DNA from: Gymnothorax reevesii
Taxonomy: Eukaryota; Chordata; Actinopteri; Anguilliformes; Muraenidae
Direction: 5' to 3'
DNA length: 64,000 nt
Assembly (NCBI GenBank): GCA_029721435.1
Contig: CM056577.1
Coordinates: forward strand, 113,148,219-113,212,218
Numbering within the stretch: position 1 is the first letter of the stretch; each line of letters starts with the position of its first letter. This document shows positions 14,550 to 64,000 of the stretch, one piece after another. The position numbers and the translations under genes are program-made. The notes under the pieces are model-generated. The model was not told the DNA's origin, searched no databases, and saw nothing but the letters and a program-made list of their open reading frames with translations.

Positions 14550-16022
14550 ATTGATAGTATCTTAGACTCAATCATTCGCGATTCAGTCACAAGTCACCAA
14601 ACTGTCACATTGGCCCCTGAAAAGATGAGCAACTCGCGCGGTATCACAGTCGAGAAGACTCGATTTTGCTTCCGAGAGCCACCCGGTGTATTGCTAAAGA
14701 GAAAATATCACCAATATATGAAAAGCCGCAGTACCCATCTCAGACTATTAGTGAGCATTATTCAGAAGTCTCCAAATTAAAGATTAACACCGAGACAGGA
14801 AAGACAAGCGCGAAGATTCTTCTGCGCAAGCATTAATTTATAACGGATACCAGCGGTGCTGTCAGAAAGCGCATCCCTTTAAACCTAGCTACTACACCTT
14901 GTCTGCAGGTGCATGGTATACAGTAGACAGATTTTGCTGTGTTGCAATGTGTTCTAATACTTGTTTAAATGTTTGCTTTTCTTTTGACAGATATTGGACA
15001 GCTTGGAGCGCTTTGTCTCTGGCGACAGGAAATTCAATTCAAGACAAATGTGTAGCTCCAGAATATATTTTACCATTGAGTAAGGGGAACTTTAATTAAA
15101 TAGGCGCCACATTGTATCGGACATTTTAATAATATAAAGTTTATACTTGCATTTCTAAGACATTGAAATAAGTAAGCAAATAAATAAATAAAGTGATAAT
15201 GCTGCTGACGGCAAATTTCCTCAATCAATTTTTCATCATTAGTTGGAGCATACTATAACGTTGCAATTTGCTTATACTTCAGGAAACTTTGCACAATGTC
15301 AGTCAGTTCAATTTCAACTGATACTTTTTATATGTAGGCTACTGCCTAAGAACAATGGATACTTGACAATAAAAGCTAGGAATTTGAGCAAGCGTTTTTG
15401 TCTATGCGCCCGTATTATTTGCCTTTAAATTTGAACATACATGCCTTTAATTGATAATGTCTCATTAGATAAATGTCTGAATCAATCATTTTGCAACTGC
15501 GCAAAAATAGATTTAGTCATTTCGGAACTGAAAGGTCCAAGACGACACTTCAGCACTTGGAAAATGGTAAGCTTGGCAAAAACAAGACAGTTGTGAATTT
15601 CAGCTGTGACGACTTTGTCAGTCATTTTGTTCCGTTATGTAATTATTATCAGAGAATGGTTAATTGATGGTAATATCTGGATGTGCCTAAGCAGATAACG
15701 CTTAACATAAAGAGCATTGCTGAAAATCCACAGGGGTCCGCTTTTGACCCGTGTCATTGCCCCGAGTGTTAAAGACAAGAACAATCAGTTGTGAAGGTTC
15801 GGCTGCGTGTGGAACCGTACGCAGCTCTTGGTCCATCATTTTTCAAAGACCTCTCCCAGGTAATTCTGCAATTTTTAAGGCCTGTTACCAAATTGTTTCA
15901 CAGATTCATTATATTTGCTATGCATTCATTTGCCTGTATTTAAACAACCAGAAAAAACTGATTAGTAGTCATTGCTAAATCCAGAAGGACAATTCTTCAT
16001 TAATTTAATACGACATATATAG

Positions 16023-16166
16023 CAGTCCCCGAAGAGACTGTCAAAAATTGCCAAATCTGCTGATATTTCAAGCTGATCCAGCGGGGTATTGGGTTAAGTT
16101 TTCAACCAGCAATAATCGCGCCTCGGTTACACCTCATGGGCTACGATACTGCCACTGCGCAAAGAT
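16023..16166 (-). ncRNA. rnu4: U4 snRNA copy 1 (consensus)
   Basis: U4 pairs with U6 in the U4/U6.U5 tri-snRNP and is released on spliceosome activation. On the minus strand the copy begins AUCUUUGCGCAG (nt 1-12, U6 stem II partner). The 5' stem-loop follows (nt about 20-52, k-turn AUGAGG...CCGAGG), then GCUGGU (nt 57-62, stem I partner), the conserved GAAAAC, AAUACCCCGC, the Sm site AAUUUUUGA (118-126) and the 3' hairpin CAGUCUC-UUCG-GGGACUG (127-144). Its length of 144 nt matches vertebrate U4. Relative to human U4 as I remember it there are changes at nt 2, 29, 37, 40, 60, 61, 72, 73 and in the central stem. The PSE and distal element are intact, so it is probably transcribed. Confidence 0.93.
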
Positions 16167-18244
16167 AAGTTCGATTAATTAAAAGGGAATGGCCCAGCCG
16201 AGCCCATCAATTTTTTCAAAATGGTAATCTTTTTTGCAAAATTTGTTAAAAATATATGTCACCTATCTAGTGACTACACAACAAAACCATGCAACCCTTA
16301 ACATATGATTTTTGAAGCAATCAATTTCATTTCAAAAGTGGAACGGTAGCCTCGCCAACTATTTAAAAAAAAAATTGGAAACACGGAGCATTCTGGGTAA
16401 TAAAGGTGAGGGTTCCACCTTTGTGTGGAACCACCGGCCCTTTACTGCTCCCGATTTACACACCCGGGCACATTTCCTGAAAAATACTGATTCAGCAGTA
16501 TGTAGGCTACTATCCAATTGCATAGTCAGTTCAAACATTGAAAATGTACTCACTTTGGATTTGTGATGATAAGAATTCCACATTTCCGAAAAGAAATAGA
16601 AAAATCATCGGTGCTTCATTCAACTTATGACTCAAATCCCCGCACCATTCATTATAAGGGATCAATGGCCTTCATTCTCACGACCACCAAGACATTCACA
16701 CCAACTGCAGGAGGAGGCTAGATCCCTTTGGGAATGCACAACGTGTATCCATTATTCTGAAAGAATACAAATGCGATAGTATCTTAGACTCAATCATTCG
16801 CGATTCAGTCACAAGTTACCAAACTGTCACATTGGCCCCTGAAAAGATGAGCAACTCGCGCGGTATCACAGTCGAGAAGACTCGATTTTGCTTCCGAGAG
16901 CCACCCGGTGTATTGCTAAAGAGAAAATATCAGCGATATATGAAAAGCCGCAGTACCCATCTCAGACTAATAGTGAGCATTATTCAGAAGTCTCCAAATT
17001 AAAGATTAACACCGAGACAGGAAAGACAAGCGCGAAGATTCTTCTGCGCAAGCATTAATTTATAACGGATACCAGCGGTGCTGTCAGAAAGCGCATCCCT
17101 TTAAACCTAGCTACTACACCTTGTCTGCAGGTGCATGGTATACAGTAGACAGATTTTGCTGTGTTGCAATGTGTTCTAATATTTGTTTAAATGTTTGCTT
17201 TTCTTTTGACAGATATTGGACAGCTTGGAGCGCTTTGTCTCTGGCGACAGGAAATTCAATTCAAGACAAATGTATAGCTCCAGAATATATTTTACCATTG
17301 AGTAAGGGGAACTTTAATTAAATAGGCGCCACATTGTATCGGACATTTTAATAATATAAAGTTTATACTTGCATTTCTAAGACATTGAAATAAGTAAGCA
17401 AATAAATAAATAAAGTGATAATGCTGCTGACGGCAAATTTCCTCAATCAATTTTTCATCATTAGTTGGAGCATACTATAACGTTGCAATTTGCTTATACT
17501 TCAGGAAACTTTGCACAATGTCAGTCAGTTCAATTTCAACTGATACTTTTTATATGTAGGCTACTGCCTAAGAACAATGGATACTTGACAATAAAAGCTA
17601 GGAATTTGAGCAAGCGTTTTTGTCTATGCGCCCATATTATTTGCCTTTAAATTTGAACATACATGCCTTTAATTGATAATGTCTCATTAGATAAATGTCT
17701 GAATCAATCATTTTGCAACTGCGCAAAAATAGATTTAGTCATTTTGGAACTGAAAGGTCCAAGACGACACTTCAGCACTTGGAAAATGGTAAGCTTGGCA
17801 AAAACAAGACAGTTGTGAATTTCAGCTGTGACGACTTTGTCAGTCATTTTGTTCCATTATGTAATTATTATCAGAGAATGGTTAATTGATGGTAATATCT
17901 GGATGTGCCTAAGCAGATAACGCTTAACATAAAGAGCATTGCTGAAAATCCACAGGGGTCCGCTTTTGACCCCTGTCATTGCCCCGAGTGTTAAAGACAA
18001 GAACAATCAGTTGTGAAGGTTCGGCTGCGTGTGGAACCGTACGCGGCTCTTGGTCCATCATTTTTCAAAGACCTCTCCCAGGTTATTCTGCAATTTTTAA
18101 GGCCTGTTACCAAATTGTTTCACAGATTCATTACATTTGCTATGCATTCATTTGCCTGTATTTAAACAACCAGAAAAAATTGATCAGTAGTCACTGCTAA
18201 ATCCAGAAGGACAGTTCTTCATTAATTTAATACGACATATATAG

Positions 18245-18388
18245 CAGTCCCCGAAGAGACTGTCAGAAATTGCCAAATCTTCTGATATTTCAAGCTGATC
18301 CAGCGGGGTATTGGGTTAAGTTTTCAACCAACAATAATCGCGCCTCGGTTACACCTCATGGGCTACGATACTGCCACTGCGCAAAGAT
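18245..18388 (-). ncRNA. rnu4: U4 snRNA copy 2, Sm site altered, likely inactive
   Basis: 144 nt, three differences from consensus. One changes the Sm site to AAUUUCUGA, which breaks the U tract needed for Sm core assembly; another changes C58 in the U6 stem I segment. The distal element upstream is also altered ('attctgtgtaa', 18611-18621), and a 3-kb transposon sits 382 bp upstream at 18770. It is the second U4 from the decayed left side of the array. Confidence 0.9.
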
Positions 18389-19542
18389 AAGTTCGATTAA
18401 TTAAAAGGGAATGGCCCAGCCGAGCCCATCAATTTTTTCAAAATGGTAATCTTTTTTGCAAAATTTGTTAAAAATATATGTCACCTATCTAGTGACTACA
18501 CAACAAAACCATGCAACCCTTAATATATGATTTTTGAAGCAATCAATTTCATTTCAAAAGTGGAACGGTAGCCTCGCCAACTATTTAAAAAAAAATTGGA
18601 AACACGGAGCATTCTGTGTAATAAAGGTGAGGGTTCCACCTTTGTGTGGAACCACCGGCCCTTTACTGCTCCCGATTTACACACCCGGGCACATTTCCTG
18701 AAAAATACTGATTCAGCAGTATGTAGGCTACTATCCAATTGCATAGTCAGTTCAAACATTGAAAATGTACACACTAAAAAATGCTGGGTGAATTTCATGA
18801 CTCAATCGTTGGGTCGTTGAAAACAGACCCAGATTGGGTGACTAATTTAGTCTTGGGTGAAATATCTTTGGGTCTTTTATTGTTGTTGCACAAATATTAA
18901 CCACAACCTGGGTCACCGCAACGGACTACACTGCACAATACCCAGGTCCTGGTCATCAAGTACTAATTGCTGGGTGAACTGAAGGACCCATTTGATGGGT
19001 CCGTTAATATTGGGTGATTAATTTAATCTTGGATTAAATATCTGTGGGTCTTTTTTGTTGCGGCGCGAACATTGACCTCAAACTGGGTAACCACAACGCT
19101 GGGTCCCATTCCCGCTGCACCATACCCATTTAATGGGTCAATTTTCCCGCTGCTGTGGATTGCCGACAGGGGCAAGGGACGATCCTCGGACCTTGGAAGT
19201 AAGTGGCTTTATTTCATATTAATATTATTCAGCCTTGCCAATATTCACGACATAGCACGGCTCATACATGCTAACTTTACCGCCTTTGCGGCTTTTTTTA
19301 TTCAGAATGAATGAAAAAATTATTGTCTATAGCGGTACAGTTGGAATGTATAACGTACACGGCATCTTGTGTGTTAGGCTATTGCTTACGTTAGCTGTTG
19401 TCTGTTAGGCTACCGAGCTAAGCCTTCTGGCTACGGAGCCAGTGCTACTGATACTGTAGGCTGGTCGGATTAACGTAAATAGAAAACTGAGTTTAAACTA
19501 GGCTGGAGGCTGGCGGTACGGAGCCCACCGGCCAGACCCCAA

Positions 19543-19664
19543 CGAGTCGTTATATTTACTTGCCAGGTGTTCCGTCGATTTCTCCTACCTATAGACCGAT
19601 TCAACGGTCAAAAAACTAAAAGGAGAAATCGAAAGAACACCAGGCAAGTAAACCTAGCGACTCG
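19543..19664. repeat. Long imperfect inverted repeat inside the transposon
   Basis: The arms at about 19543-19585 and 19620-19664 (CGAGTCG...TTTACTTGCC...TCGATTTCTCCT and its complement) form a ~43-bp imperfect stem. A smaller GACCG/CGGTC hairpin lies in the loop. Confidence 0.75.
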
Positions 19665-20588
19665 CTAGCCTGTTCGGGCAAGTTGCTAAAAATAGTAAAA
19701 GTATACGTCCTCCGCTGGCCGTGAAGCTGTGGGGTAACGTTACGGGGCTGTGGGTGTGGAGCTGTGGGGGTGCAGAGCGATGTGGGGCGGAGGCTGGCTA
19801 ACCACAGCACGATACAATAGCTTTCTATGATGCTGAGCTGATGCCACGAACTGCATTTATAAAATAGGCAGAGGAATAGCTTAACATAAGACGTACTGAG
19901 CAAGAGACCGCAACAGAGAGGGAGAAGCCATCACTAATTGTAAAGCTAAGTAACTAGCAGTTTGGTAAAATAACTAGCTGACTGCTAACCGCTAAGCAAA
20001 TGTAAGTACCATTTCTGAGTAGAGCGTAAAAAACAGCAAGACACTCGCGAATAAAGAGAGCTATTTTCTCTGCTGCCGAGCCTCGCTTCTCCCCCCCCCC
20101 TCCCCCAACTGTCGGTTTATTTCGTGAAACGAGTGAGGAACATCAGAGCTGTATACGTTAAAGGACTACAGCTCCCATGATCCCACGCTACTCCATGACG
20201 TCATACAGCTTCGTTTTTTGACTGTTCAGAAAATAACCATGGACCTTGAAAATTACACATTCAACTAAATTTTCTTCAGATTTTTTTTTTATCTTGTATG
20301 TGTGAATTTGTGATAACGTCAAGACGTCAAGCCTATATTAAAAATTGATGTCAATAAGTTATTTATAGTTGTCAAAACTATAAAAAAGGAGTGTCACATT
20401 GGCCTTTTATTATAGCCTATAACAGACTAAGACTAAGCATAAAAATGGATGGTCATCTTTGTTGACATTTGATAGCTGCTTAAATTAAACAATTTGTATT
20501 TGGGTGTAACTAAAAACTGACAACTTGCCTGACTGAGCTAGTGGGGGAAAAAAAAAAACCTTAACCTTGAACCCTGTTGTTGTCGCAG

Positions 20589-20746
20589 CCTGGCCTATAT
20601 GTTTCATCTGAGCATTTATGGAGATATAAATGTAATGTTGATAACTGATTGCTGTCTCTTTGGTCTCATTTCCTACTCCATGGCTGAGTACGTAAAAGAG
20701 CGACTCAGATCACGGAATCTTGAAGAACTCATCCCGAAATTTGAAG
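20589..20746 (+). pseudogene. Exon-like segment with SAM-like coding start inside the transposon
   Basis: A strong acceptor (pyrimidine-rich ...gtcgcag, AG at 20587-20588) opens the segment. An ATG at 20680 starts 'MAEYVKERLRSRNLEELIPKFE', resembling the first helices of a SAM domain. The segment ends at a donor GAAG|GTATAG (20747). A preceding GTAAGT donor at 19199 and a following acceptor at 21136 (ttgttcacag) suggest three exons. Joining the coding frame to 21137 gives a stop after about 10 residues, so any product would be a short fragment. Probably captured host gene pieces, or the remnant of an element-encoded gene. Confidence 0.45.
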
Positions 20747-20801
20747 GTATAGTAAATCTGTCTTTTGCCTCACTCTGTGTTGGGGCTCTCTGTCATTAAG
20801 T

Positions 20802-20848
20802 GTGTGCGCACGTGTGTGTGCCTGTGTGTGCGTTTGTGTGCGTACAGA
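20802..20848. repeat. Imperfect (GT)n microsatellite
   Basis: GTGT-rich tract with interruptions (gtgtgtgcgcacgtgtgtgt...) in the presumed intron of the captured cassette. Confidence 0.85.
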
Positions 20849-21136
20849 AAGGACGCTGGCTGCTTCTCCATGTGTGTGAATGAGAAGAGTCAGGTGCTTT
20901 GGCTGTCATGAAAAGTGCCATAGAAATGCAGTGAATCATTATAAATATTGAACTGTTCGTGAAATGTGAGGGACACTTGAAGGCAATATTCTACTTTCCC
21001 CATGTAGTCCATGTCAAAATAACAACGATTCTGTACCACTGTAAGGAGTATTAAACTTCCCCCATTTGACTTAACATTTATTTCAGTAAAATTATGAAAG
21101 TTCCTCATTCCTGAATGGAATCTTTTTTGTTCACAG

Positions 21137-21370
21137 ATTGGAACCAACATGCCAGAGTATCTCAGTGAAGCCGATGCTGCTCATGAAGCTGTCTGCCAGA
21201 GAGGATGGCAGTCTGAGGGCCAAACGCTCCATCAGCCCCAACCAGCAGCACCCTCTGTCCACCTCTCGCTTTCTCACATTTGTATTTTTAATGGTTTTGT
21301 ACTGTTTAAAATATGTATCAAATATATACAATGTAAATAAGCAGTTTCTGTGTTGTCTGTTATTTATTTA
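21137..21370 (+). pseudogene. Candidate last exon of the captured cassette
   Basis: It begins after a good acceptor (tttttgttcacag). It contains two overlapping open frames of about 60-75 residues, neither resembling a known domain. In phase with the preceding exon it stops quickly. It ends in an AT-rich stretch before the right subterminal repeats. Support is only the splice-site pattern. Confidence 0.3.
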
Positions 21371-23468
21371 GAACCGAATAAGAAAAGGCCATACAAAGTA
21401 TCAAATTAACAAATGGGTAAGAAATGCCCAGCACTGGGTAAAGAATTTCAGAGTTAACTAAATAACATCAACCCAACAAAAGGGTAAAAATTAACCAATG
21501 CTGGGTAAGAAATGCCCAGCATTGGGTAAAGAATTTCAACATTAACTAAATAACATTGACCCAGCAAAAGGTGAAGAGTGACCCACACTACTGGCTCAAA
21601 GTCACCCATTTTTGGGTGAAATAGGTTGACCCAGTATGTTGGGTCAAAATTGTGACCCAAGTGCCTTGGGTCCTTTTGACCCAGTGCCCAGTAGGTGATA
21701 TAGTGACTACCCATTGGGTCACTGAAATTACCCAATTTGGGTGATTATTGACCCAGCAGTTTTTAGAGTGTACTCACTTTGGATTTGTGATGATAAGAAT
21801 TCCACATTTCCGAAAAGAAATAGAAAAATCATCGGTGCTTCACTCAACTTATGACTCAAATCCCCGCACCATTCATTATAAGGGATCAATGGCCTTCATT
21901 CTCACGACCACCAAGACATTCACACCAACTGCAGGAGGAGGCTAGATCCCTTTGGGAAAGCACAACGTGTATCCATTATTCTGAAAGAATACAAATGCGA
22001 TAGTATCTTAGACTCAATCATTCGCGATTCAGTCACAAGTCACCAAACTGTCACATTGGCCCCTGAAAAGATGAGCAACTCGCGCGGTATCACAGTCGAG
22101 AAGACTCGATTTTGCTTCCGAGAGCCACCCGGTGTATTGCTAAAGAGAAAATATCAGCGATATATGAAAAGCCGCAGTACCCATCTCAGACTAATAGTGA
22201 GCATTATTCAGAAGTCTCCAAATTAAAGATTAACACCGAGACAGGAAAGACAAGCGCGAAGATTCTTCTGCGCAAGCATTAATTTATAATGGATACCAGC
22301 GGTGCTGTCAGAAAGCGCATCCCTTTAAACCTAGCTACTACACCTTGTCTGCAGGTGCATGGTATACAGTAGACAGATTTTGCTGTGTTGCAATGTGTTC
22401 TAATATTTGTTTAAATGTTTGCTTTTCTTTTGACAGATATTGTACAGCTTGGAGCGCTTTGTCTCTGGCGACAGGAAATTCAATTCAAGACAAATGTATA
22501 GCTCCAGAATATATTTTACCATTGAGTAAGGGGAACTTTAATTAAATAGGCGCCACATTGTATCGGACATTTTAATAATATAAAGTTTATACTTGCATTT
22601 CTAAGACATTGAAATAAGTAAGCAAATAAATAAATAAAGTGATAATGCTGCTGATGGCAAATTTCCTCAATCAATTTTTCATCATTAGTTGGAGCATACT
22701 ATAACGTTGCAATTTGCTTATACTTCAGGAAACTTTGCACAATGTCAGTCAGTTCAATTTCAACTGATACTTTTTATATGTAGGCTACTGCCTAAGAACA
22801 ATGGATACTTGACAATAAAAGCTAGGAATTTGAGCAAGCGTTTTTGTCTATGCGCCCATATTATTTGCCTTTAAATTTGAACATACATGCCTTTAATTGA
22901 TAATGTCTCATTAGATAAATGTCTGAATCAATCATTTTGCAACTGCGCAAAAATAGATTTAGTCATTTCGGAACTGAAAGGTCCAAGACGACACTTCAGC
23001 ACTTGGAAAATGGTAAGCTTGGCAAAAACAAGACAGTTGTGATTTTCAGCTGTGACGACTTTGTCAGTCATTTTGTTCCATTATGTAATTATTATCAGAG
23101 AATGGTTAATTGATGGTAATATCTGGATGTGCCTAAGCAGATAACGCTTAACATAAAGAGCATTGCTGAAAATCCACAGGGGTCCGCTTTTGACCCCTGT
23201 CATTGCCCCGAGTGTTAAAGACAAGAACAATCAGTTGTGAAGGTTCGGCTGCGTGTGGAACCGTACGCGGCTCTTGATCCATCATTTTTCAAAGACCTCT
23301 CCCAGGTTATTCTGCAATTTTTAAGGCCTGTTACCAAATTGTTTCACAGATTCATTACATTTGCTATGCATTCATTTGCCTGTATTTTAACAACCAGAAA
23401 AAATTGATCAGTAGTCACTGCTAAATCCAGAAGGACAATTCTTCATTAATTTAATACGACATATATAG

Positions 23469-23612
23469 CAGTCCCCGAAGAGACTGTCAAAAATTGCCAA
23501 ATCTGCTGATATTTCAAGCTGATCCAGCGGGGTATTGGGTTAAGTTTTCAACCAGCAATAATCGCGCCTCGGTTACACCTCGTGGGCTACGATACTGCCA
23601 CTGCGCAAAGAT
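23469..23612 (-). ncRNA. rnu4: U4 snRNA copy 3
   Basis: 144 nt, one difference from consensus, in the k-turn region (plus 'cctcgtggg' for 'cctcatggg', nt 31). The base pattern just upstream of +1 also differs ('atatgttcg'). Sm site and U6-pairing segments are intact. The change falls in the U of AUGA, next to the 15.5K-protein binding site, so function is uncertain. Confidence 0.91.
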
Positions 23613-25690: not shown

Positions 25691-25834
25691 CAGTCCCCGA
25701 AGAGGCTGTCAAACATTGCCAAATCTGCTGATATTCCAAGCTGATCCAGCGGGGTATTGGGTTAAGTTTTCAACCAGCAATTATCGCGCCTCGGTTACAC
25801 CTCATGGGCTACGATACTGCCACTGCGCAAAGAT
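25691..25834 (-). ncRNA. rnu4: U4 snRNA copy 4, Sm site altered, likely inactive
   Basis: 144 nt, four differences. The Sm site reads AAUGUUUGA, the 3' hairpin has one changed base ('agaggctg'), the central region has 'attcc', and the 5' stem base has 'caattatcg'. The broken Sm tract makes a stable snRNP unlikely. The 3' flank is also variant ('acgatatatat'). Confidence 0.9.
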
Positions 25835-27900: not shown

Positions 27901-27911
27901 GACATATATAG

Positions 27912-28055
27912 CAGTCCCCGAAGAGACTGTCAAAAATTGCCAAATCTGCTGATATTTCAAGCTGATCCAGCGGGGTATTGGGTTAAGTTTTCAACCAGCA
28001 ATAATCGCGCCTCGGTTACACCTCATGGGCTACGATACTGCCACTGCGCAAAGAT
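27912..28055 (-). ncRNA. rnu4: U4 snRNA copy 5 (consensus)
   Basis: Identical to the consensus over all 144 nt. Promoter elements are intact: PSE 28097-28116, distal element 28269-28287. The 3' flank carries private changes ('agtagttactactgaatcc'). It is a good candidate for an expressed gene. Confidence 0.93.
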
Positions 28056-30130: not shown

Positions 30131-30274
30131 CAGTCCCCGAAGAGACTGTCAAAAATTGCCAAATCTGCTGATATTTCAAGCTGATCCAGCGGGGTATTGG
30201 GTTAAGTTTTCAACCAGCAATAATCGCGCCTCGGTTACACCTCATGGGCTACGATACTGCCACTGCGCAAAGAT
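30131..30274 (-). ncRNA. rnu4: U4 snRNA copy 6 (consensus)
   Basis: Identical to consensus. The distal element has a one-base variant ('gcattcggggtaa') shared with copies 8 and 10. The AT-rich stretch just upstream of +1 reads 'gattatttaa', shared with copy 10. Confidence 0.93.
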
Positions 30275-32351: not shown

Positions 32352-32495
32352 CAGTCCCCGAAGAGACTGTCAAAAATTGCCAAATCTGCTGATATTTCAA
32401 GCTGATCCAGCGGGGTATTGGGTTAAGTTTTCAACCAGCAATAATCGCGCTTCGGTTACACGTCATGGGCTACGATACTGCCACTGCGCAAAGAT
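32352..32495 (-). ncRNA. rnu4: U4 snRNA copy 7, 5' stem-loop altered
   Basis: Two differences, both in the k-turn/5' stem-loop (plus 'cgcttcggttacacgtcat'). They change the CCGAGG side to CCGAAG and one G of AUGAGG to C. Binding of the 15.5K/PRPF31 proteins would probably suffer. Sm site and U6 pairing are intact. Confidence 0.91.
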
Positions 32496-34572
32496 AAGTT
32501 CGATTAATTAAAAGGGAATGGCCCAGCCGAGCCCATCAATTTTTTCAAAATGGTAATCTTTCTTGCAAAATTTGTTAAAAATATATGTCACCTATCTAGT
32601 GACTACACAACAAAACCATGCAACCCTTAACATATGATTTTTGAAGCAATCAATTTCATTTCAAAAGTGGAACGGTAGCCTCGCCAACTATTTAAAAAAA
32701 AATTGGAAACACGGAGCATTCTGGGTAATAAAGGTGAGGGTTCCACCTTTGTGTGGAACCACCGGCCCTTTACTGCTCCCGATTTACACACCCGGGCACA
32801 TTTCCTGAAAAATACTGATTCAGCAGTATGTAGGCTACTATCCAATTGCATAGTCAGTTCAAACATTGAAAACGTACTCACTTTGGATTTGTGATGATAA
32901 GAATTCCACATTTCCGAAAAGAAATAGAAAAATCATCGGTGCTTCATTCAACTTATGACTCAAATCCCCGCACCATTCATTATAAGGGATCAATGGCCTT
33001 CATTCTCACGACCACCAAGACATTCACACCAACTGCAGGAGGAGGCTAGATCCCTTTGGGAATGCACAACGTGTATCCATTATTCTGAAAGAATACAAAT
33101 GCGATAGTATCTTAGACTCAATCATTCGCGATTCAGTCACAAGTCACCAAACTGTCACATTGGCCCCTGAAAAGATGAGCAACTCGCGCGGTATCACAGT
33201 CGAGAAGACTCGATTTTGCTTCCGAGAGCCACCCGGTGTATTGCTAAAGAGAAAATATCAGCGATATATGAAAAGCCGCAGTACCCATCTCAGACTAATA
33301 GTGAGCATTATTCAGAAGTCTCCAAATTAAAGATTAACACCGAGACAGGAAAGACAAGCGCGAAGATTCTTCTGCGCAAGCATTAATTTATAACGGATAC
33401 CAGCGGTGCTGTCAGAAAGCGCATCCCTTTAAACCTAGCTACTACACCTTGTCTGCAGGTGCATGGTATACAGTAGACAGATTTTGCTGTGTTGCAATGT
33501 GTTCTAATATTTGTTTAAATGTTTGCTTTTCTTTTGACAGATATTGGACAGCTTGGAGCGCTTTGTCTCTGGCGACAGGAAATTCAATTCAAGACAAATG
33601 TATAGCTCCAGAATATATTTTACCATTGAGTAAGGGGAACTTTAATTAAATAGGCGCCACATTGTATCGGACATTTTAATAATATAAAGTTTATACTTGC
33701 ATTTCTAAGACATTGAAATAAGTAAGCAAATAAATAAATAAAGTGATAATGCTGCTGACGGCAAATTTCCTCAATCAATTTTTCATCATTAGTTGGAGCA
33801 TACTATAACGTTGCAATTTGCTTATACTTCAGGAAACTTTGCACAATGTCAGTCAGTTCAATTTCAACTGATATAAAAAGTATGTAGGCTACTGCCTAAG
33901 AACAATGGATACTTGACAATAAAAGCTAGGAATTTGAGCAAGCGTTTTTGTCTATGCGCCCATATTATTTGCCTTTAAATTTGAACATACATGCCTTTAA
34001 TTGATAATGTCTCATTAGATAAATGTCTGAATCAATCATTTTGCAACTGCGCAAAAATAGATTTAGTCATTTCGGAACTGAAAGGTCCAAGACGACACTT
34101 CAGCACTTGGAAAATGGTAAGCTTGGCAAAAACAAGACAGTTGTGAATTTCAGCTGTGACGACTTTGTCAGTCATTTTGTTCCTTTATGTAATTATTATC
34201 AGAGAATGGTTAATTGATGGTAATATCTGGATGTGCCTAAGCAGATAACGCTTAACATAAAGAGCATTGCTGAAAATCCACAGGGGTCCGCTTTTGACCC
34301 CTGTCATTGCCCCGAGTGTTAAAGACAAGAACAATCAGTTGTGAAGGTTCGGCTGCATGTGGAACTGTACGCGGCTCTTGGTCCATCATTTTTCAAAGAC
34401 CTCTCCCAGGTTATTCTGCAATTTTTAAGGCCTGTTACCAAATTGTTTCACAGATTCGTTACATTTGCTATGCATTCATTTGCCTGTATTTAAACAACCA
34501 GAAAAAATTGACCAGTAGTCACTGCTAAATCCAGAAGGACAATTCTTCATTAATTTAATACGACATATATAG

Positions 34573-34716
34573 CAGTCCCCGAAGAGACTGTCAAAAATTG
34601 CCAAATCTGCTGATATTTCAAGCTGATCCAGCGGGGTATTGGGTTAAGTTTTCAACCAGCAATAATCGCGCCTCGGTTACACCTCATGGGCTACGATACT
34701 GCCACTGCGCAAAGAT
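34573..34716 (-). ncRNA. rnu4: U4 snRNA copy 8 (consensus)
   Basis: Identical to consensus. The upstream flank reads 'gattagttaaaag' and the distal element carries the 'ttcggggtaa' variant. Confidence 0.93.
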
Positions 34717-36778
34717 AAGTTCGATTAGTTAAAAGGGAATGGCCCAGCCGAGCCCATCAATTTTTTCAAAATGGTAATCTTTTTTGCAAAATTTGTTAAA
34801 AATATATGTCACCTATCTAGTGACTACACAACAAAACCATGCAACCCTTAACATATGATTTTTGAAGCAATCAATTTCATTTCAAAAGTGGAACGGTAGC
34901 CTCGCCAACTATTTAAAAAAAAATTAGAAACACGGAGCATTCGGGGTAATAAAGGTGAGGGTTCCACCTTTGTGTGGAACCACCGGCCCTTTACTGCTCC
35001 CGATTTACACACCCGGGCACATTTCCTGAAAAATACTGATTCAGCAGTATGTAGGCTACTATCCAATTGCATAGTCAGTTCAAACATTGAAAATGTACTC
35101 ACTTTGGATTTGTGATGATAAGAATTCCACATTTCCGAAAAGAAATAGAAAAATCATCGGTGCTTCATTCAACTTATGACTCAAATCCCCGCACCATTCA
35201 TTATAAGGGATCAATGGCCTTCATTCTCACGACCACCAAGACATTCACACCAACTGCAGGAGGAGGCTAGATCCCTTTGGGAATGCACAACGTGTATCCA
35301 TTATTCTGAAAGAATACAAATGCGATAGTATCTTAGACTCAATCATTCGCGATTCAGTCACAAGTCACCAAACTGTCACATTGGCCCCTGAAAAGATGAG
35401 CAACTCGCGCGGTATCACAGTCGAGAAGACTCGATTTTGCTTCCGAGAGCCACCCGGTGTATTGCTAAAGAGAAAATATCAGCGATATATGAAAAGCCGC
35501 AGTACCCATCTCAGACTAATAGTGAGCATTATTCAGAAGTCTCCAAATTAAAGATTAACACCGAGACAGGAAAGACAAGCGCGAAGATTCTTCTGCGCAA
35601 GCATTAATTTATAACGGATACCAGCGGTGCTGTCAGAAAGCGCATCCCTTTAAACCTAGCTACTGCACCTTGTCTGCAGGTGCATGGTATACAGTAGACA
35701 GATTTTGCTGTGTTGCAATGTGTTCTAATATTTGTTTAAATGTTTGCTTTTCTTTTGACAGATATTGTACAGCTTGGAGCGCTTTGTCTCTGGCGACAGG
35801 AAATTCAATTCAAGACAAATGTATAGCTCCAGAATATATTTTACCATTGAGTAAGGGGAACTTTAATTAAATAGGCGCCACATTGTATCGGACATTTTAA
35901 TAATATAAAGTTTATACTTGCATTTCTAAGACATTGAAATAAGTAAGCAAATAAATAAATAAAGTGATAATGCTGCTGACGGCAAATTTCCTCAATCAAT
36001 TTTTCATCATTAGTTGGAGCATACTATAATGTTGCAATTTGCTTATACTTCAGGAAACTTTGCACAATGTCAGTCAGTTCAATTTCAACTGATACTTTTT
36101 ATATGTAGGCTACTGCCTAAGAACAATGGATACTTGACAATAAAAGCTAGGAATTTGAGCAAGCGTTTTTGTCTATGCGCCCATATTATTTGCCTTTAAA
36201 TTTGAACATACATGCCTTTAATTGATAATGTCTCATTAGATAAATGTCTGAATCAATCATTTTGCAACTGCGCAAAAATAGATTTAGTCATTTCGGAACT
36301 GAAAGGTCCAAGACGACACTTCAGCACTTGGAAAATGGTAAGCTTGGCAAAAACAAGACAGTTGTGAATTTCAGCTGTGACGACTTTGTCAGTCATTTTG
36401 TTCCATTATGTAATTATTATCAGAGGATGGTTAATTGATGGTAATATCTGGATGTGCCTAAGCAGATAACGCTTAACATAAAGAGCATTGCTGAAAATCC
36501 ACAGGGGTCCGCTTTTGACCCCTGTCATTTCCCCGAGTGTTAAAGACAAGAACAATCAGTTGTGAAGGTTCGGCTGCGTGTGGAACCGTACGCGGCTCTT
36601 GGTCCATCATTTTTCAAAGACCTCTCCCAGGTTATTCTGCAATTTTTAAGGCCTGTTACCAAATTGTTTCACAGATTCATTACATTTGCCTGTATTTAAA
36701 CAACCAGAAAAAATTGACCAGTAGTCACTGCTAAATCCAGAAGGACAATTCTTCATTAATTTAATACGACATATATAG

Positions 36779-36922
36779 CAGTCCCCGAAGAGACTGTCAA
36801 AAATTGCCAAATCTGCTGATATTTCAAGCTGATCCAGCGGGGTATTGGGTTAAGTTTTCAACCAGCAATAATCGCGCCTCGGTTACACCTCATGGGCAAC
36901 GATACTGCCACTGCGCAAAGAT
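36779..36922 (-). ncRNA. rnu4: U4 snRNA copy 9
   Basis: One difference (plus 'gggcaacgat' for 'gggctacgat', A25 to U) in the lower 5' stem-loop. The unit has a 15-bp deletion about 90 bp beyond the U4 3' end. Sm and U6-pairing segments are intact. Confidence 0.92.
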
Positions 36923-38999
36923 AAGTTTGATTAATTAAAAGGGAATGGCCCAGCCGAGCCCATCAATTTTTTCAAAATGGTAATCTTTTTTGCAAAATTT
37001 GTTAAAAATATATGTCACCTATCTAGTGACTACACAACAAAACCATGCAACCCTTAACATATGATTTTTGAAGCAATCAATTTCATTTCAAAAGTGGAAC
37101 GGTAGCCTCGCCAACTATTTAAAAAAAAATTGGAAACACGGAGCATTCTGGGTAATAAAGGTGAGGGTTCCACCTTTGTGTGGAACCACCGGCCCTTTAC
37201 TGCTCCCGATTTACACACCCGGGCACATTTCCTGAAAAATACTGATTCAGCAGTATGTAGGCTACTATCCAATTGCATAGTCAGTTCAAACATTGAAAAC
37301 GTACTCACTTTGGATTTGTGATGATAAGAATTCCACATTTCCGAAAAGAAATAGAAAAATCATCGGTGCTTCATTCAACTTATGACTCAAATCCCCGCAC
37401 CATTCATTATAAGGGATCAATGGCCTTCATTCTCACGACCACCAAGACATTCACACCAACTGCAGGAGGAGGCTAGATCCCTTTGGGAATGCACAACGTG
37501 TATCCATTATTCTGAAAGAATACAAATGCGATAGTATCTTAGACTCAATCATTCGCGATTCAGTCACAAGTCACCAAACTGTCACATTGGCCCCTGAAAA
37601 GATGAGCAACTCGCGCGGTATCACAGTCGAGAAGACTCGATTTTGCTTCCGAGAGCCACCCGGTGTATTGCTAAAGAGAAAATATCAGCGATATATGAAA
37701 AGCCGCAGTACCCATCTCAGACTAATAGTGAGCATTATTCAGAAGTCTCCAAATTAAAGATTAACACCGAGACAGGAAAGACAAACGCGAAGATTCTTCT
37801 GCGCAAGCATTAATTTATAACGGATACCAGCGGTGCTGTCAGAAAGCGCATCCCTTTAAACCTAGCTACTACACCTTGTCTGCAGGTGCATGGTATACAG
37901 TAGACAGATTTTGCTGTGTTGCAATGTGTTCTAATATTTGTTTAAATGTTTGCTTTTCTTTTGACAGATATTGGACAGCTTGGAGCGCTTTGTCTCTGGC
38001 GACAGGAAATTCAATTCAAGACAAATGTATAGCTCCAGAATATATTTTACCATTGAGTAAGGGGAACTTTAATTAAATAGGCGCCACATTGTATCGGACA
38101 TTTTAATAATATAAAGTTTATACTTGCATTTCTAAGACATTGAAATAAGTAAGCAAATAAATAAATAAAGTGATAATGCTGCTGACGGCAAATTTCCTCA
38201 ATCAATTTTTCATCATTAGTTGGAGCATACTATAACGTTGCAATTTGCTTATACTTCAGGAAACTTTGCACAATGTCAGTCAGTTCAATTTCAACTGATA
38301 CTTTATATATGTAGGCTACTGCCTAAGAACAATGGATACTTGACAATAAAAGCTAGGAATTTGAGCAAGTGTTTTTGTCTATGCGCCCATATTATTTGCC
38401 TTTAAATTTGAACATACATGCCTTTAATTGATAATGTCTCATTAGATAAATGTCTGAATCAATCATTTTGCAACTGCGCAAAAATAGATTTAGTCATTTC
38501 GGAACTGAAAGGTCCAAGACGACACTTCAGCACTTGGAAAATGGTAAGCTTGGCAAAAACAAGACAGTTGTGAATTTCAGCTGTGACGACTTTGTCAGTC
38601 ATTTTGTTCCATTATGTAATTATTATCAGAGAATGGTTAATTGATGGTAATATCTGGATGTGCCTAAGCAGATAACGCTTAACATAAAGAGCATTGCTGA
38701 AAATCCACAGGGGTCCGCTTTTGACCCCTGTCATTGCCCCGAGTGTTAAAGACAAGAACAATCAGTTGTGAAGGTTCGGCTGCATGTGGAACTGTACGCG
38801 GCTCTTGGTCCATCATTTTTCAAAGACCTCTCCCAGGTTATTCTGCAATTTTTAAGGCCTGTTACCAAATTGTTTCACAGATTCATTACATTTGCTATGC
38901 ATTCATTTGCCTGTATTTAAACAACCAGAAAAAATTGACCAGTAGTCACTGCTAAATCCAGAAGGACAATTCTTCATTAATTTAATACGACATATATAG

Positions 39000-39143
39000 C
39001 AGTCCCCGAAGAGACTGTCAAAAATTGCCAAATCTGCTGATATTTCAAGCTGATCCAGCGGGGTATTGGGTTAAGTTTTCAACCAGCAATAATCACGCCT
39101 CGGTTACACCTCATGGGCTACGATACTGCCACTGCGCAAAGAT
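39000..39143 (-). ncRNA. rnu4: U4 snRNA copy 10
   Basis: One difference (plus 'aatcacgcct' for 'aatcgcgcct') in the 3' strand of the 5' stem. The upstream flank 'gattatttaa' is shared with copy 6. All other functional segments are intact. Confidence 0.92.
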
Positions 39144-43440: not shown

Positions 43441-43584
43441 CAGTCCCCGAAGAGTCTGTCAAAAATTGCCAAATCTGCTGCTATTTCAAGCTGATCCAGC
43501 GGGGTATTGGGTTAAGTTTTCAACCAGCAATAATCGCGCCTCGGTTACACCTCATGGGCTACGATATTGCCACTGCCCAAAGAT
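43441..43584 (-). ncRNA. rnu4: U4 snRNA copy 12, four changes (same haplotype as copy 14)
   Basis: Four differences, including C8 to G in the U6 stem II segment (plus 'ctgcccaaag'), 'gatattgcc' near nt 19, 'tgctgctatt' in the central stem, and U130 to A in the 3' hairpin ('agagtctg'). All four recur in copy 14, 4,442 bp away. Confidence 0.9.
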
Positions 43585-45661: not shown

Positions 45662-45805
45662 CAGTCCCCGAAGAGACTGTCAAAAATTGCCAAATCTGCT
45701 GATATTTCAAGCTGATCCAGCGGGGTATTGGGTTAAGTTTTCAACCAGCAATAATCGCGCCTCGGTTACACCTCATGGGATACGATACTGCCACTGCGCA
45801 AAGAA
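45662..45805 (-). ncRNA. rnu4: U4 snRNA copy 13
   Basis: Two differences: the first nucleotide (plus 'aagaaatg' for 'aagataag', shared with copy 15) and 'gggatacg' in the 5' stem-loop (private). Sm and 3' hairpin are intact. The changed +1 base may shift initiation. Confidence 0.91.
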
Positions 45806-47882: not shown

Positions 47883-48026
47883 CAGTCCCCGAAGAGTCTG
47901 TCAAAAATTGCCAAATCTGCTGCTATTTCAAGCTGATCCAGCGGGGTATTGGGTTAAGTTTTCAACCAGCAATAATCGCGCCTCGGTTACACCTCATGGG
48001 CTACGATATTGCCACTGCCCAAAGAT
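47883..48026 (-). ncRNA. rnu4: U4 snRNA copy 14 (duplicate of copy 12)
   Basis: Carries the same four differences as copy 12, plus the same 3'-flank variants ('aaatacagaagg', 'aattattc'). This marks it as part of a dimer duplication. The U6 stem II change argues against normal function. Confidence 0.9.
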
Positions 48027-50103: not shown

Positions 50104-50247
50104 CAGTCCCCGAAGAGACTGTCAAAAATTGCCAAATCTGCTGATATTTCAAGCTGATCCAGCGGGGTATTGGGTTAAGTTTTCAACCAGCAATAATCGC
50201 GCCTCGGTTACACCTCATGGGCTACGATACTGCCACTGCGCAAAGAA
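50104..50247 (-). ncRNA. rnu4: U4 snRNA copy 15 (duplicate of copy 13)
   Basis: One difference, at the +1 position, shared with copy 13. It lacks copy 13's private 5' stem-loop change, so that change arose after the duplication. Confidence 0.92.
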
Positions 50248-52189
50248 ATGTTCGATTAATTAAAAGGGAATGGCCCAGCCGAGCCCATCAATTTTTTCAA
50301 AATGGTAATCTTTTTTGCAAAATTTGTTAAAAATATATGTCACCTATCTAGTGACTACACAACAAAACCATGCAACCCTTAACATATGATTTTTGAAGCA
50401 ATCAATTTCATTTCAAAAGTGGAACGGTAGCCTCGCCAACTATTTAAAAAAAAATTGGAAACACGGAGCATTCTGGGTAATAAAGGTGAGGGTTCCACCT
50501 TTGTGTGGAACCACCGGCCCTTTACTGCTCCCGATTTACACACCCGGGCACATTTCCTGAAAAATACTGATTCAGCAGTATGTAGGCTACTATCCAATTG
50601 CATAGTCAGTTCAAACATTGAAAATGTACTCACTTTGGATTTGTGATGATAAGAATTCCACATTTCCGAAAAGAAATAGAAAAATCATCGGTGCTTCATT
50701 CAACTTATGACTCAAATCCCCGCACCATTCATTATAAGGGATCAATGGCCTTCATTCTCACGACCACCAAGACATTCACACCAACTGCAGGAGGAGGCTA
50801 GATCCCTTTGGGAATGCACAACGTGTATCCATTATTCTGAAAGAATACAAATGCGATAGTATCTTAGACTCAATCATTCGCGATTCAGTCACAAGTCACC
50901 AAACTGTCACATTGGCCCCTGAAAAGATGAGCAACTCGCGCGGTATCACAGTCGAGAAGACTCGATTTTGCTTCCGAGAGCCACCCGGTGTATTGCTAAA
51001 GAGAAAATATCAGCGATATATGAAAAGCCGCAGTACCCATCTCAGACTAATAGTGAGCATTATTCAGAAGTCTCCAAATTAAAGATTAACACCGAGACAG
51101 GAAAGACAAGCGCGAAGATTCTTCTGCGCAAGCATTAATTTATAACGGATACCAGCGGTGCTGTCAGAAAGCGCATCCCTTTAAACCTAGCTACTACACC
51201 TTGTCTGCAGGTGCATGGTATACAGTAGACAGATTTTGCTGTGTTGCAATGTGTTCTAATATTTGTTTAAATGTTTGCTTTTCTTTTGACAGATATTGTA
51301 CAGCTTGGAGCGCTTTGTCTCTGGCGACAGGAAATTCAATTCAAGACAAATGTATAGCTCCAGAATATATTTTACCATTGAGTAAGGGGAACTTTAATTA
51401 AATAGGCGCCACATTGTATCGGACATTTTAATAATATAAAGTTTATACTTGCATTTCTAAGACATTGAAATAAGTAAGCAAATAAATAAATAAAGTGATA
51501 ATGCTGCTGACGGCAAATTTCCTCAATCAATTTTTCATCATTAGTTGGAGCATACTATAACGTTGCAATTTGCTTATACTTCAGGAAACTTTGCACAATG
51601 TCAGTCAGTTCAATTTCAACTGATACTTTTTATATGTAGGCTACTGCCTAAGAACAATGGATACTTGACAATAAAAGCTAGGAATTTGAGCAAGCGTTTT
51701 TGTCTATGCGCCCATATTATTTGCCTTTAAATTTGAACATACATGCCTTTAATTGATAATGTCTCATTAGATAAATGTCTGAATCAATCATTTTGCAACT
51801 GCGCAAAAATAGATTTAGTCATTTCGGAACTGAAAGGTCCAAGACGACACTTCAGCACTTGGAAAATGGTAAGCTTGGCAAAAACAAGACAGTTGTGAAT
51901 TTCAGCTGTGACGACTTTGTCAGTCATTTTGTTCCATTATGTAATTATTATCAGAGAATGGTTAATTGATGGTAATATCTGGATGTGCCTAAGCAGATAA
52001 CGCTTAACATAAAGAGCATTGCTGAAAATCCACAGGGGTCCGCTTTTGACCCCTGTCATTGCCCCGAGTGTTAAAGACAAGAACAATCAGTTGTGAAGGT
52101 TCGGCTGCGTGTGGAACCGTACGCGGCTCTTGGTCCATCATTTTTCAAAGACCTCTCCCAGGTTATTCTGCAAGTTTTAAGGCCTGTTA

Positions 52190-52337
52190 CCAAATTGTTT
52201 CACAGATTCATTACATTTGCTATGCATTCATTTGCCTGTATTTAAACAACCAGAAAAAATTGACCAAATTGTTTCACAGATTCATTACATTTGCTATGCA
52301 TTCATTTGCCTGTATTTAAACAACCAGAAAAAATTGA
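52190..52337. repeat. 74-bp tandem duplication in the unit of copy 16
   Basis: Two direct copies of a 74-bp segment ('ccaaattgtttcacag' to 'gaaaaaattga') lie end to end 61 bp beyond the U4 3' end. This lengthens the unit to 2,295 bp. Confidence 0.97.
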
Positions 52338-52398
52338 CCAGTAGTCACTGCTAAATCCAGAAGAACAATTCTTCATTAATTTAATACGACATATATAG

Positions 52399-52542
52399 CA
52401 GTCCCCGAAGAGTCTGTCAAAAATTGCCAAATCTGCTGATATTTCAAGCTGATCCAGCGGGGTATTGGGTTAAGTTTTCAACCAGCAATAATCGCGCCTC
52501 GGTTACATCTCATGGGCTACGATACTGCCACTGCGCAAAGAT
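52399..52542 (-). ncRNA. rnu4: U4 snRNA copy 16
   Basis: Two differences: U130 to A in the 3' hairpin ('agagtctg'), which replaces a pair with an A-A mismatch, and 'tacatctc' in the 5' loop, shared with copy 11. A 74-bp tandem duplication lies 61 bp beyond its 3' end. Confidence 0.91.
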
Positions 52543-54619: not shown

Positions 54620-54763
54620 CAGTTCCCGAAGAGACTGTCAAAAATTGCCAAATCTTCTGATATTTCAAGCTGATTCAGCGGGGTATTGGGTTAAATTTTC
54701 AACCAGCAACAATCGCGCCTCGGTTACTCCTCATGGGCTACGATACTGCCACTGCGCAAAGAT
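54620..54763 (-). ncRNA. rnu4: U4 snRNA copy 17, most divergent
   Basis: Six differences, in the 3' hairpin ('agttcccg'), central stem ('atcttctg', shared with copy 2; 'tgattcagc'), beside GAAAAC ('ttaaatttt'), near U6 stem I ('gcaacaatcg') and in the 5' loop ('ttactcctc'). The Sm site is intact. Likely a pseudogene in the middle of an otherwise homogeneous array. Confidence 0.9.
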
Positions 54764-56840: not shown

Positions 56841-56984
56841 CAGTCCCCGAAGAGTCTGTCAATAATTGCCAAATCTGCTGATATTTCAAGCTGATCCAGC
56901 GGGGTATTGGGTTAAGTTTTCAACCAGCAATAATCGCGCCTCGGTTACACCTCATGGGCTACGATACTGCCACTGCGCAAAGAT
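56841..56984 (-). ncRNA. rnu4: U4 snRNA copy 18, Sm site altered
   Basis: Two differences. The Sm site becomes AAUUAUUGA, interrupting the U tract, and the 3' hairpin has U130 to A. Stable Sm core assembly is doubtful. Confidence 0.9.
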
Positions 56985-59135: not shown

Positions 59136-59279
59136 CAGTCCCCGAAGAGTCTGTCAAAAATTGCCAAATCTGCTGATATTTCAAGCTGATCCAGCGGGGT
59201 ATTGGGTTAAGTTTTCAACCAGCAATAATCGCGCCTCGGTTACACCTCATGGGCTACGATACTGCCACTGCGCAAAGAT
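59136..59279 (-). ncRNA. rnu4: U4 snRNA copy 19
   Basis: One difference (U130 to A in the 3' hairpin). It is followed on the downstream side by the 74-bp duplication (58927-59074), the combination also seen at copies 16 and 21. Confidence 0.92.
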
Positions 59280-61356: not shown

Positions 61357-61500
61357 CAGTCCCCGAAGAGACTGTCAAAAATTGCCAAATCTGCTGATAT
61401 TTCAAGCTGATCCAGCGGGGTATTGGGTTAAGTTTTCAACCAGCAATAATCGCGCCTCGGTTACACCTCATGGGCTACGATACTGCCACTGCGCAATGAT
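61357..61500 (-). ncRNA. rnu4: U4 snRNA copy 20
   Basis: One difference in the 5' terminal U6-pairing segment (plus 'gcgcaatgat', giving AUCAUUGCGC). The rest is consensus, including the Sm site. Confidence 0.92.
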
Positions 61501-63442: not shown

Positions 63443-63590
63443 CCAAATTGTTTCACAGATTCATTACATTTGCTATGCATTCATTTGCCTGTATTTAAAC
63501 AACCAGAAAAAATTGACCAAATTGTTTCACAGATTCGTTACATTTGCTATGCATTCATTTGCCTGTATTTAAACAACCAGAAAAAATTGA
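63443..63590. repeat. 74-bp tandem duplication in the unit of copy 21
   Basis: Same breakpoints as the other two. The second copy has 'agattcgttac', a variant found elsewhere only in non-duplicated units (for example 27795 and 61238), suggesting later conversion. Confidence 0.97.
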
Positions 63591-63651
63591 CCAGTAGTCA
63601 CTGCTAAATCCAGAAGAACAATTCTTCATTAATTTAATACGACATATATAG

Positions 63652-63795
63652 CAGTCCCCGAAGAGTCTGTCAAAAATTGCCAAATCTGCTGATATTTCAA
63701 GCTGATCCAGCGGGGTATTGGGTTAAGTTTTCAACCAGCAATAATCGCGCCTCGGTTACACCTCATGGGCTACGATACTGCCACTGCGCAAAGAT
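63652..63795 (-). ncRNA. rnu4: U4 snRNA copy 21
   Basis: One difference (U130 to A in the 3' hairpin). The last copy visible; its PSE is present (63837-63856), but its distal element lies beyond the window edge. Confidence 0.92.
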
Positions 63796-64000
63796 AAGTT
63801 CGATTAATTAAAAGGGAATGGCCCAGCCGAGCCCATCAATTTTTTCAAAATGGTAATCTTTTTTGCAAAATTTGTTAAAAATATATGTCACCTATCTAGT
63901 GACTACACAACAAAACCATGCAACCCTTAACATATGATTTTTGAAGCAATCAATTTCATTTCAAAAGTGGAACGGTAGCCTCGCCAACTATTTAAAAAAA

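Follow-up and report, generated by a model that had tools for sequence, protein, structure and literature searches.

The window analysed here, a 64,000-nt stretch of the Gymnothorax reevesii genome with zero N content, holds U4 genes, at least 21 of them and all full-length, in a tandem array dedicated to them; its 2.2-kb units are nearly identical and exchange sequence with one another. Within these units, a stretch that fits the U4 transcription unit is about seven times as variable as the rest. We read the locus, with a probability of roughly 0.6, as an array that serves U4 dosage and is homogenised by exchange; transcription in the germline would raise mutation in each transcription unit, and redundancy would retain the damage.

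Array layout and U4 identity

A first-pass annotation had proposed at least 21 minus-strand U4 genes in 2.2-kb tandem units and named a search with the Rfam U4 model as the way to check them. A cmscan of the 64-kb window against Rfam 15 returned 21 matches at the gathering threshold, all to RF00015 (U4) and none to any other family. Every match lies on the minus strand, spans model positions 1-138 of 138 and scores between 102.2 and 116.3 bits (gathering score 46; E 5e-22 or better), which places all 21 copies in the U4 family as full-length members. Together with U4-to-U4 spacings of 2206-2295 bp, this bears the proposal out. The single exception, a spacing of 5224 bp, is due to an insertion of about 3 kb within unit 2.

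14553..64000, minus: tandem array made up of a remnant lacking U4 and 21 U4-bearing units, 2206-2295 bp long except for the longer unit 2 (cmscan, spacings, blastn, alignment)
14553-16025, minus: remnant unit without U4 (blastn)
18769..21768, unstranded: insertion of about 3 kb interrupting the U2 spacer, its ends inverted and CACTAAAAAATGCTGGGT-like, limits approximate (blastn break, sequence reading)
52189..52340, unstranded: tandem duplication of 74 bp within the 3' flank, U16 copy (TRF)
58926-59077, unstranded: the same duplication, U19 copy (TRF)
63442-63593, unstranded: the same duplication, U21 copy (TRF)

With one unit (34576-36781) as blastn query, the U4-bearing units were 98.3-99.2% identical to it, the last unit, which is cut by the window edge, 99.4% and the remnant lacking U4 97.7%; at the site of the 74-bp duplication, additional short alignments of about 88% identity appeared. 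This identity, the sharing of unit-specific variants and the U12/U14 pair, whose units (2221 bp) show no substitution difference in the alignment, indicate head-to-tail units that are kept alike by exchange, i.e. concerted evolution.

As the first-pass annotation had supposed, the array runs on past the right edge of the window, its last unit being cut at position 64000 in both cmscan and blastn. Its description of the array as pure did not hold, given the insertion that splits unit 2 and the transposons that break the left side. Nor does the array begin at 14550, since unit fragments of the same orientation extend leftward to position 2, in unit order and with transposon sequence between them.

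2..419, minus: diverged unit fragment (unit 370-783, 92.6%; blastn)
4871..5591, minus: diverged unit fragment (unit 1145-1867, 96.3%; blastn)
5593..14461, minus: LTR-retrotransposon-like insertion within a unit (self-blastn, Pfam domains)
14462..14552, minus: diverged unit fragment collinear with 4871-5591 (unit 1864-1954, 90.1%; blastn)

The terminal repeats of the LTR-like insertion (5593-6077 and 13970-14461) are 87% identical by self-blastn. It carries RVT_1 (6679-7125) and Integrase_H2C2 (10001-10423) domains, and a further reverse-transcriptase-like ORF at 11284-12108 suggests that it may be composite. One transposon ORF had 15 matches, the best of the named ones in Anguilla rostrata (79% over 58%) and others in Epinephelus, Knipowitschia and Branchiostoma; for a second, the named matches among the 120 listed of 1603 are from bony fishes and a skate. 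These matches suit a probable ray-finned fish. Judged from its sequence, the insertion in unit 2 resembles a DNA transposon, though no transposase was recognised in it. One of its ORFs had no Pfam match, and no curated RNA was found in it, only four sub-threshold matches to miRNA families.

The search for a second non-coding RNA in the unit, across 2801 bases including a full unit and at relaxed thresholds, found none; beyond two U4 genes it gave two sub-threshold matches to a Listeria sRNA (E 3.5). A bacterial-code scan found no tRNAs in the 64-kb window. As a side observation, the U4 pattern also matched in one 2-kb viral contig.

State of the individual copies

The copies are listed below with cmscan coordinates and with the changes seen when they were realigned to their consensus.

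16026..16166, minus: U4 copy U1, identical to consensus
18248..18388, minus: U4 copy U2, C58T, C108A, Sm-site T123C
23472..23612, minus: U4 copy U3, T31C
25694..25834, minus: U4 copy U4, T53A, A99G, Sm-site T121G, T130C
27915..28055, minus: U4 copy U5, identical to consensus
30134..30274, minus: U4 copy U6, identical to consensus
32355..32495, minus: U4 copy U7, G34C, G45A, 5' stem-loop region
34576..34716, minus: U4 copy U8, identical to consensus
36782..36922, minus: U4 copy U9, A25T
39003..39143, minus: U4 copy U10, C49T
41224..41364, minus: U4 copy U11, 5 changes
43444..43584, minus: U4 copy U12, 4 changes
45665..45805, minus: U4 copy U13, A1T, G26T
47886..48026, minus: U4 copy U14, 4 changes, identical to those in U12
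50107..50247, minus: U4 copy U15, A1T
52402..52542, minus: U4 copy U16, G35A, T130A
54624..54763, minus: U4 copy U17, 6 changes, more than in any other copy
56844..56984, minus: U4 copy U18, Sm-site T122A, T130A
59139..59279, minus: U4 copy U19, T130A
61360..61500, minus: U4 copy U20, T4A
63655..63795, minus: U4 copy U21 (unit cut by the window edge), T130A

The earlier description of a full U4 in every unit thus stands as to length (21/21) and falls short as to sequence: only four copies (U1, U5, U6 and U8) match the consensus, 17 of the 21 are altered, and the Sm site AAUUUUUG, unchanged in 18 copies, is changed in U2, U4 and U18. T130A is present in six of the 21. A 1-bp deletion in copy U17 was rejected, being without support in the realignment; the 1-base indels at U16 and U17 in the alignment are cut-point effects.

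Promoter-like elements and 3' end

Vertebrate U4 is transcribed by Pol II, and a Pol II-type snRNA gene has a PSE near -60, a DSE (SBS/ZNF143, octamer) near -220 and a 3' box downstream. Pattern matching recovered the PSE-like and ZNF143-like elements of the first-pass annotation at -61 and -230, which we label as such by their likeness to the consensus sequences.

34758..34777, minus: PSE-like element TTACCATTTTGAAAAAATTG, starting at -61, shown on copy U8 (pattern match)
37143..37152, minus: ZNF143/SBS-like core CCCAGAATGC, starting at -230, shown on copy U9 (pattern match)

The PSE-like element is invariant in 21/21 units; the ZNF143/SBS-like core is altered in four (U2, U6, U8 and U10) of the 20 units that extend far enough. 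The pattern search found no octamer upstream of U4. The 3' box that had been called plausible found no support: its best match reaches 7 of 11 positions, and 93% of 70-nt windows of upstream spacer reach that score too, so that downstream of U4 nothing rises above chance with the degenerate 11-position consensus. With no 3' box supported and the element degenerate, we do not file these genes in the Pol II-type snRNA class on sequence.

Variation concentrates on U4 and its immediate flanks

Comparison of the 20 complete units showed polymorphism at 43 of 220 sites in U4 and its immediate flanks and at 56 of 2001 elsewhere, a density ratio of 6.98 (bootstrap 4.79-10.13) and an odds ratio of 8.4 for this zone against the remainder of the unit. 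The first-pass annotation had not remarked on this concentration. These statistics come from one array in one window. A maximum-likelihood change-point fit placed the zone between -12 and +209, counted from the start of U4 (support -22 to -6 for the start, +205 to +230 for the end); the limits were picked from the data being tested, which is partly offset by this fit and by a permutation scan, where the richest 220-nt window held 43 polymorphic sites against a maximum of 25 across 2000 permutations. The excess is confined to what would be the transcribed window, as placed from the U4 model.

34508..34728, minus: hypervariable zone with copy U8 as the example, covering U4 and roughly 65 nt of 3' flank (change-point fit, site counts)

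Private variants are 9.4 times as frequent in the zone as in the rest, and 31 of 46 variants inside it occur in a single unit versus 31 of 57 outside. In the complete units, all four triallelic sites fall inside, one of them at the edge; one in the spacer (position 533) appears once the remnant's flank is counted. Other zone variants are common to several units (U12/U14, U13/U15 and U16/U19/U21), and some co-occur with spacer variants (U12/U14).

No purifying selection was visible in U4: the gene (28/141 polymorphic sites) varies as much as its 3' flank (13/68), and conserved model positions (11/54) are not visibly spared when set against the others (17/87). CpG mutability was rejected as the cause of the zone, since non-CpG sites show the same excess (39/202 inside versus 48/1899 outside). 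The sense-strand counts, 12 G>A across 50 G sites and 6 C>T across 43 C sites, with 8 T>A across 68 T sites and 3 A>T across 59 A sites, show no clear asymmetry between the strands. Aligned to the consensus, the 20 complete units yielded 11 indel calls, of which 3 arose from cut points.

Discussion

In the reading that we favour, the array would provide bulk U4, most plausibly for the oocyte or early embryo, and Pol II would transcribe its copies in the germline. Transcription, through exposed single strand, R-loops or paused polymerase, would increase the mutation rate between -12 and +209. Redundancy would leave selection on any single copy weak; altered copies could then persist until removed by unequal crossing-over or gene conversion, with a few consensus copies maintained alongside a larger altered set. 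Several results count against this reading: strand asymmetry is not clear, one triallelic site falls in the spacer once the remnant's flank is counted, and the 3' box was not found. In addition, units differ in the zone's share of private changes (permutation p 0.0064), and a single constant rate ratio predicts otherwise. A 7-base change in one unit, counted per base, may contribute to this unevenness.

A similar variation map would also result if homogenisation were locally weaker, or from conversion by other U4 loci. Under the latter, gene conversion from dispersed, diverged U4 copies would import variants only where these are homologous, i.e. in U4 itself. The zone does cover the entire U4, and some variants, such as T130A, recur in several units. 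However, the raised density continues for about 65 nt past the gene, where retropseudogenes would have no homology, and two thirds of the zone's variants (31/46) are confined to one unit, including some at conserved positions like the Sm site. We consider this origin improbable.

Homogenisation might instead be suppressed locally over the transcription unit, so that ordinary mutations outlast those in the spacer. This predicts an identical map and is in line with the uneven ratio among units, yet the zone variants common to units imply that exchange crosses the zone, and the placing of all four triallelic sites within it also speaks against suppression, which we likewise regard as unlikely.

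A decaying, silent relic, with all copies neutral and none supplying U4, would account for the 17 non-consensus copies, the three changed Sm sites, the lack of constraint at conserved positions and a left side broken by transposons. Silence predicts that the gene varies as the spacer does, contrary to the counts, and four copies match the consensus exactly while the PSE-like element is invariant in all units; we accordingly think it doubtful that the array is a relic.

Least likely of all is an assembly or polishing artefact, in which U4 reads from other loci were misassigned and wrote false variants into U4. In its favour, the excess is limited to the part likely to be repeated elsewhere. Against it, the zone reaches beyond U4, the 11 indel calls are unlike a noisy assembly, and in U12/U14 some variants of the zone are linked to variants of the spacer.

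Returning to germline transcription and mutation, we propose more tentatively, at slightly less than even odds, that the array is a base-resolution record of transcription-associated mutagenesis in the germline, and that amplification and exchange buffer the mutation load created by expression. The mutated window would follow the path of the polymerase, beginning shortly before +1 and ending about 65 nt beyond the gene, and the little-mutated spacer of each unit would serve as its own control.

snRNA clusters are usually described for U1, U2, U5 and U6. The human RNU2 macrosatellite is reportedly a tandem snRNA gene array, and clusters of U1 and U2 are said to occur in fish, for example in hake. 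Like these, the present array repeats one snRNA gene plus spacer, homogenised by exchange; it differs in that its gene is U4 only. In the open-licence literature searched, as far as its texts were available, we found no description of a U4-only tandem array or of such a variation pattern in an snRNA array. Hypermutability of short non-coding RNA genes has reportedly been seen for tRNA and Pol III-transcribed genes in two studies.

On zebrafish chromosome 4, a repeat-rich region holds an amplified block of maternal, oocyte-expressed snRNA and 5S genes; the available part of that report names U1 and U6 as the maternal snRNAs and gives two U4 sequences there as somatic (PMC11075544). The likeness lies in the amplification of snRNA genes within a repeat-rich part of a fish chromosome, and would extend to oocyte expression if the present array is active there; the maternal snRNAs of the zebrafish block are U1 and U6, the genes of the present array U4. 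Developmental switching of U4 isoforms is described, in the sections available, for fly, Xenopus and chicken (PMC4291461), with early-development types distinct from later ones; our array would resemble the early types if it supplies the early embryo, as we suppose.

Human RNU4-2 has, according to the accessible text, a high variant density throughout the gene, its variants are described as under strong negative selection, and for a recurrent variant a high mutation rate is discussed beside germline selection (PMC11338827). The array would share with RNU4-2 a variant excess in a highly transcribed small-RNA gene, if it is transcribed as we suppose. There, variants differ between people at one locus, whereas here they differ among copies of one genome, with a spacer control and with constraint not visible. 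An excess of de novo variants in R-loop regions has also been reported, with enrichment in snRNA genes only in rare-disease cohorts, in the part of the paper available (PMC12165836). We take this report and that on RNU4-2 as precedents for the favoured reading.

In summary, the locus raises the question of how an essential splicing RNA stays functional when 17 of the 21 copies in an array are altered. For multicopy RNA genes, the usual expectation is that the spacer differs more between copies than the gene does; here this is sharply reversed, and the boundaries of the variable zone fit the transcription unit. If the more tentative proposal above is true, U4 function would be kept by turnover of copies and not by selection on each of them. 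If germline mutation is the cause, such arrays would offer many replicates and an internal control for the study of transcription-linked mutagenesis, and would bear on the high mutability that the accessible text discusses for human RNU4-2 (PMC11338827).

Identity and extent of the array

Scanned from end to end with the Rfam 15 covariance models, the window returned 21 matches above the gathering threshold, all to U4 (RF00015) and to no other family. Each is full-length, lies on the minus strand and scores 102–116 bits, so that all the genes claimed by the first-pass annotation are recognised as U4. The array is real; it is one of the tandem snRNA arrays, a class already known, and contains no recognised gene other than U4. 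The repeated units, each one U4 copy plus spacer, are nearly identical: with one unit as blastn query, identity was 98.3–99.2% for U4-bearing units, 99.4% for the last piece, which is cut by the window edge, and 97.7% for a U4-less remnant. The window holds no N bases. Spacing is 2206–2295 bp with a single exception of 5224 bp, for which a ∼3-kb insertion accounts, and the earlier description of a "pure" array therefore has to be dropped. The non-U4 features, from left to right, are:

2–419, array orientation, diverged unit fragment (92.6%, blastn)
1474–2037, ORF with a DDE_3 transposase domain, between array fragments
4871–5591, array orientation, diverged unit fragment (96.3%, blastn)
5593–6077 and 13970–14461, LTR-like repeats, 87% identical to each other
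14462–14552, array orientation, diverged unit fragment (90.1%, blastn)
14553–16025, unit remnant without U4 (blastn)
18769–21768, ∼3-kb insertion in unit 2 only, its ends inverted and CACTAAAAAATGCTGGGT-like, its sequence carrying GGGT-rich repeats

The three left fragments keep the orientation and unit order of the array and, since they start at position 2, array-derived sequence lies at the left window edge as well as the right. The second and third are collinear, interrupted by an LTR-retrotransposon-like insertion whose ORFs match reverse transcriptase and integrase zinc-binding domains; the divergence of its repeats suggests that the array may not be young. The DDE_3 ORF we label Tc1/mariner-like. 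One transposon ORF had 15 matches, of which the top named one, covering 58% of the query at 79%, came from Anguilla rostrata, and a second had 1603, the named ones among the 120 listed coming from bony fishes and a skate. These matches make a ray-finned fish the probable host. In the ∼3-kb insertion, the one ORF tried (20542–20799) had no Pfam match, and an inverted repeat (19544–19660) gave three overlapping miRNA-family matches, all sub-threshold.

Exchange between units

Array units exchange sequence. An identical 74-bp tandem duplication, which begins close to where the variable zone described below ends on its 3′ side, is common to three non-adjacent units (52189–52340, 58926–59077 and 63442–63593) and marks unit-to-unit exchange. 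Units 43444–45664 and 47886–50106, those of the twelfth and fourteenth U4 copies, show zero substitution differences, and the intervening unit has 8 relative to its own counterpart, that of the fifteenth copy, a pattern such as conversion, or the duplication of part of a dimer, would leave. One unit carries a micro-inversion: at 33874–33880, in the 3′ spacer of the eighth copy, the consensus TAAAAAG (minus strand) is replaced by CTTTTTA, its exact reverse complement.

Variation concentrated on the gene

Across the 20 complete units (the ∼3-kb insertion omitted from unit 2), 28 of 141 U4 sites are polymorphic, as are 43 of 220 once 68 nt of 3′ flank and 11 nt upstream are included, versus 56 of 2001 in the rest of the unit (odds ratio 8.4). 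The densest 220-nt window holds 43 polymorphic sites, the permutation maximum being 25 (n = 2000). A change-point fit placed the zone at −12 to +209 relative to the U4 start (support ranges −22 to −6 and +205 to +230) with a zone-to-outside density ratio of 6.98 (bootstrap 4.79–10.13), limits and test resting on the same data. Private variants per site are 9.4-fold commoner in the zone, and all four triallelic sites lie within it, one at its edge; adding the remnant's flank brings two more, at 209 (zone) and 533 (spacer). As a 7-base change in one unit was counted as seven spacer sites, the contrast is understated rather than inflated. Units differ, beyond a constant-ratio expectation (p = 0.0064), in how much of their private variation falls inside the zone, and this 7-base change may contribute to the unevenness. 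CpG mutability was ruled out as the source of the excess (non-CpG sites, 39/202 versus 48/1899). No clear strand asymmetry is evident in the zone: on the sense strand the per-site rate is higher for G>A than for C>T and higher for T>A than for A>T, but the counts behind both differences are small.

Neither U4 relative to its 3′ flank (28/141 versus 13/68 polymorphic) nor its Rfam-conserved positions (11/54 altered versus 17/87 elsewhere in U4) appeared spared. Four of the 21 copies equal the array consensus and two more differ by T130A alone; the Sm site is altered in three and the 5′ stem-loop region in nine, with region limits that we set from U4 anatomy. Single-strand folding gave a local hairpin (GGUUGA/UUAACC, 34642–34657, U4 positions 60–75 in the central region), and the overall U4 fold was no better than shuffles (z −1.31; 21/200 as good).

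Judged by motif consensus, a PSE-like and a ZNF143-like element are present, in line with the first-pass annotation: the former begins at −61 and is invariant in all 21 units, and the core of the latter (SBS/ZNF143-like) begins at −230 and is altered in 4 of the 20 units extending that far. The pattern search found no octamer. The 3′ box considered plausible before lacks support, its best match covering 7/11 positions and being equalled by 93% of 70-nt spacer windows. Vertebrate U4 is a Pol II product; with the 3′ box unsupported, we do not class these genes as Pol II-type from their own sequence.

Possible origin and meaning of the pattern

For the array, exchange and zone observed here, we favour, at a probability of roughly 60%, a dosage array supplying U4, in which we infer germline transcription as a cause: it would raise the mutation rate inside each transcription unit, redundancy would leave selection on any single copy weak, and exchange between units would renew the consensus. 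Three points count against this account: the limits of the zone were drawn from the data in which it was then measured, its spectrum lacks a clear strand asymmetry, and units are uneven in their private zone variation beyond what one fixed ratio would give. Homogenisation might instead be lowered locally over the zone, which we consider unlikely, and it is equally doubtful that conversion from other U4 loci imports the variants; the zone runs past the gene end and some of its variants are shared between units, both of which count in part against either account. The same two observations weigh in part against false U4 variants from mis-assigned reads, the least probable source.

There are precedents for parts of this picture. 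Human RNU4-2 has a high variant density, a high mutation rate being discussed alongside germline selection (PMC11338827), and R-loop regions carry an excess of de novo variants, with snRNA-gene enrichment limited to rare-disease cohorts (PMC12165836). U4 isoforms are reported to switch during development in fly, Xenopus and chicken (PMC4291461). On zebrafish chromosome 4, U1 and U6 genes are expressed in oocytes, and a somatic role is reported for both U4 sequences found there (PMC11075544), which speaks against transferring a maternal reading to this array untested. Within the available portions of the open-licence literature examined, we found no description of such an inverted pattern, with the gene more variable than its spacer, in an snRNA array, and it is this pattern that makes up the part of the array worth following.
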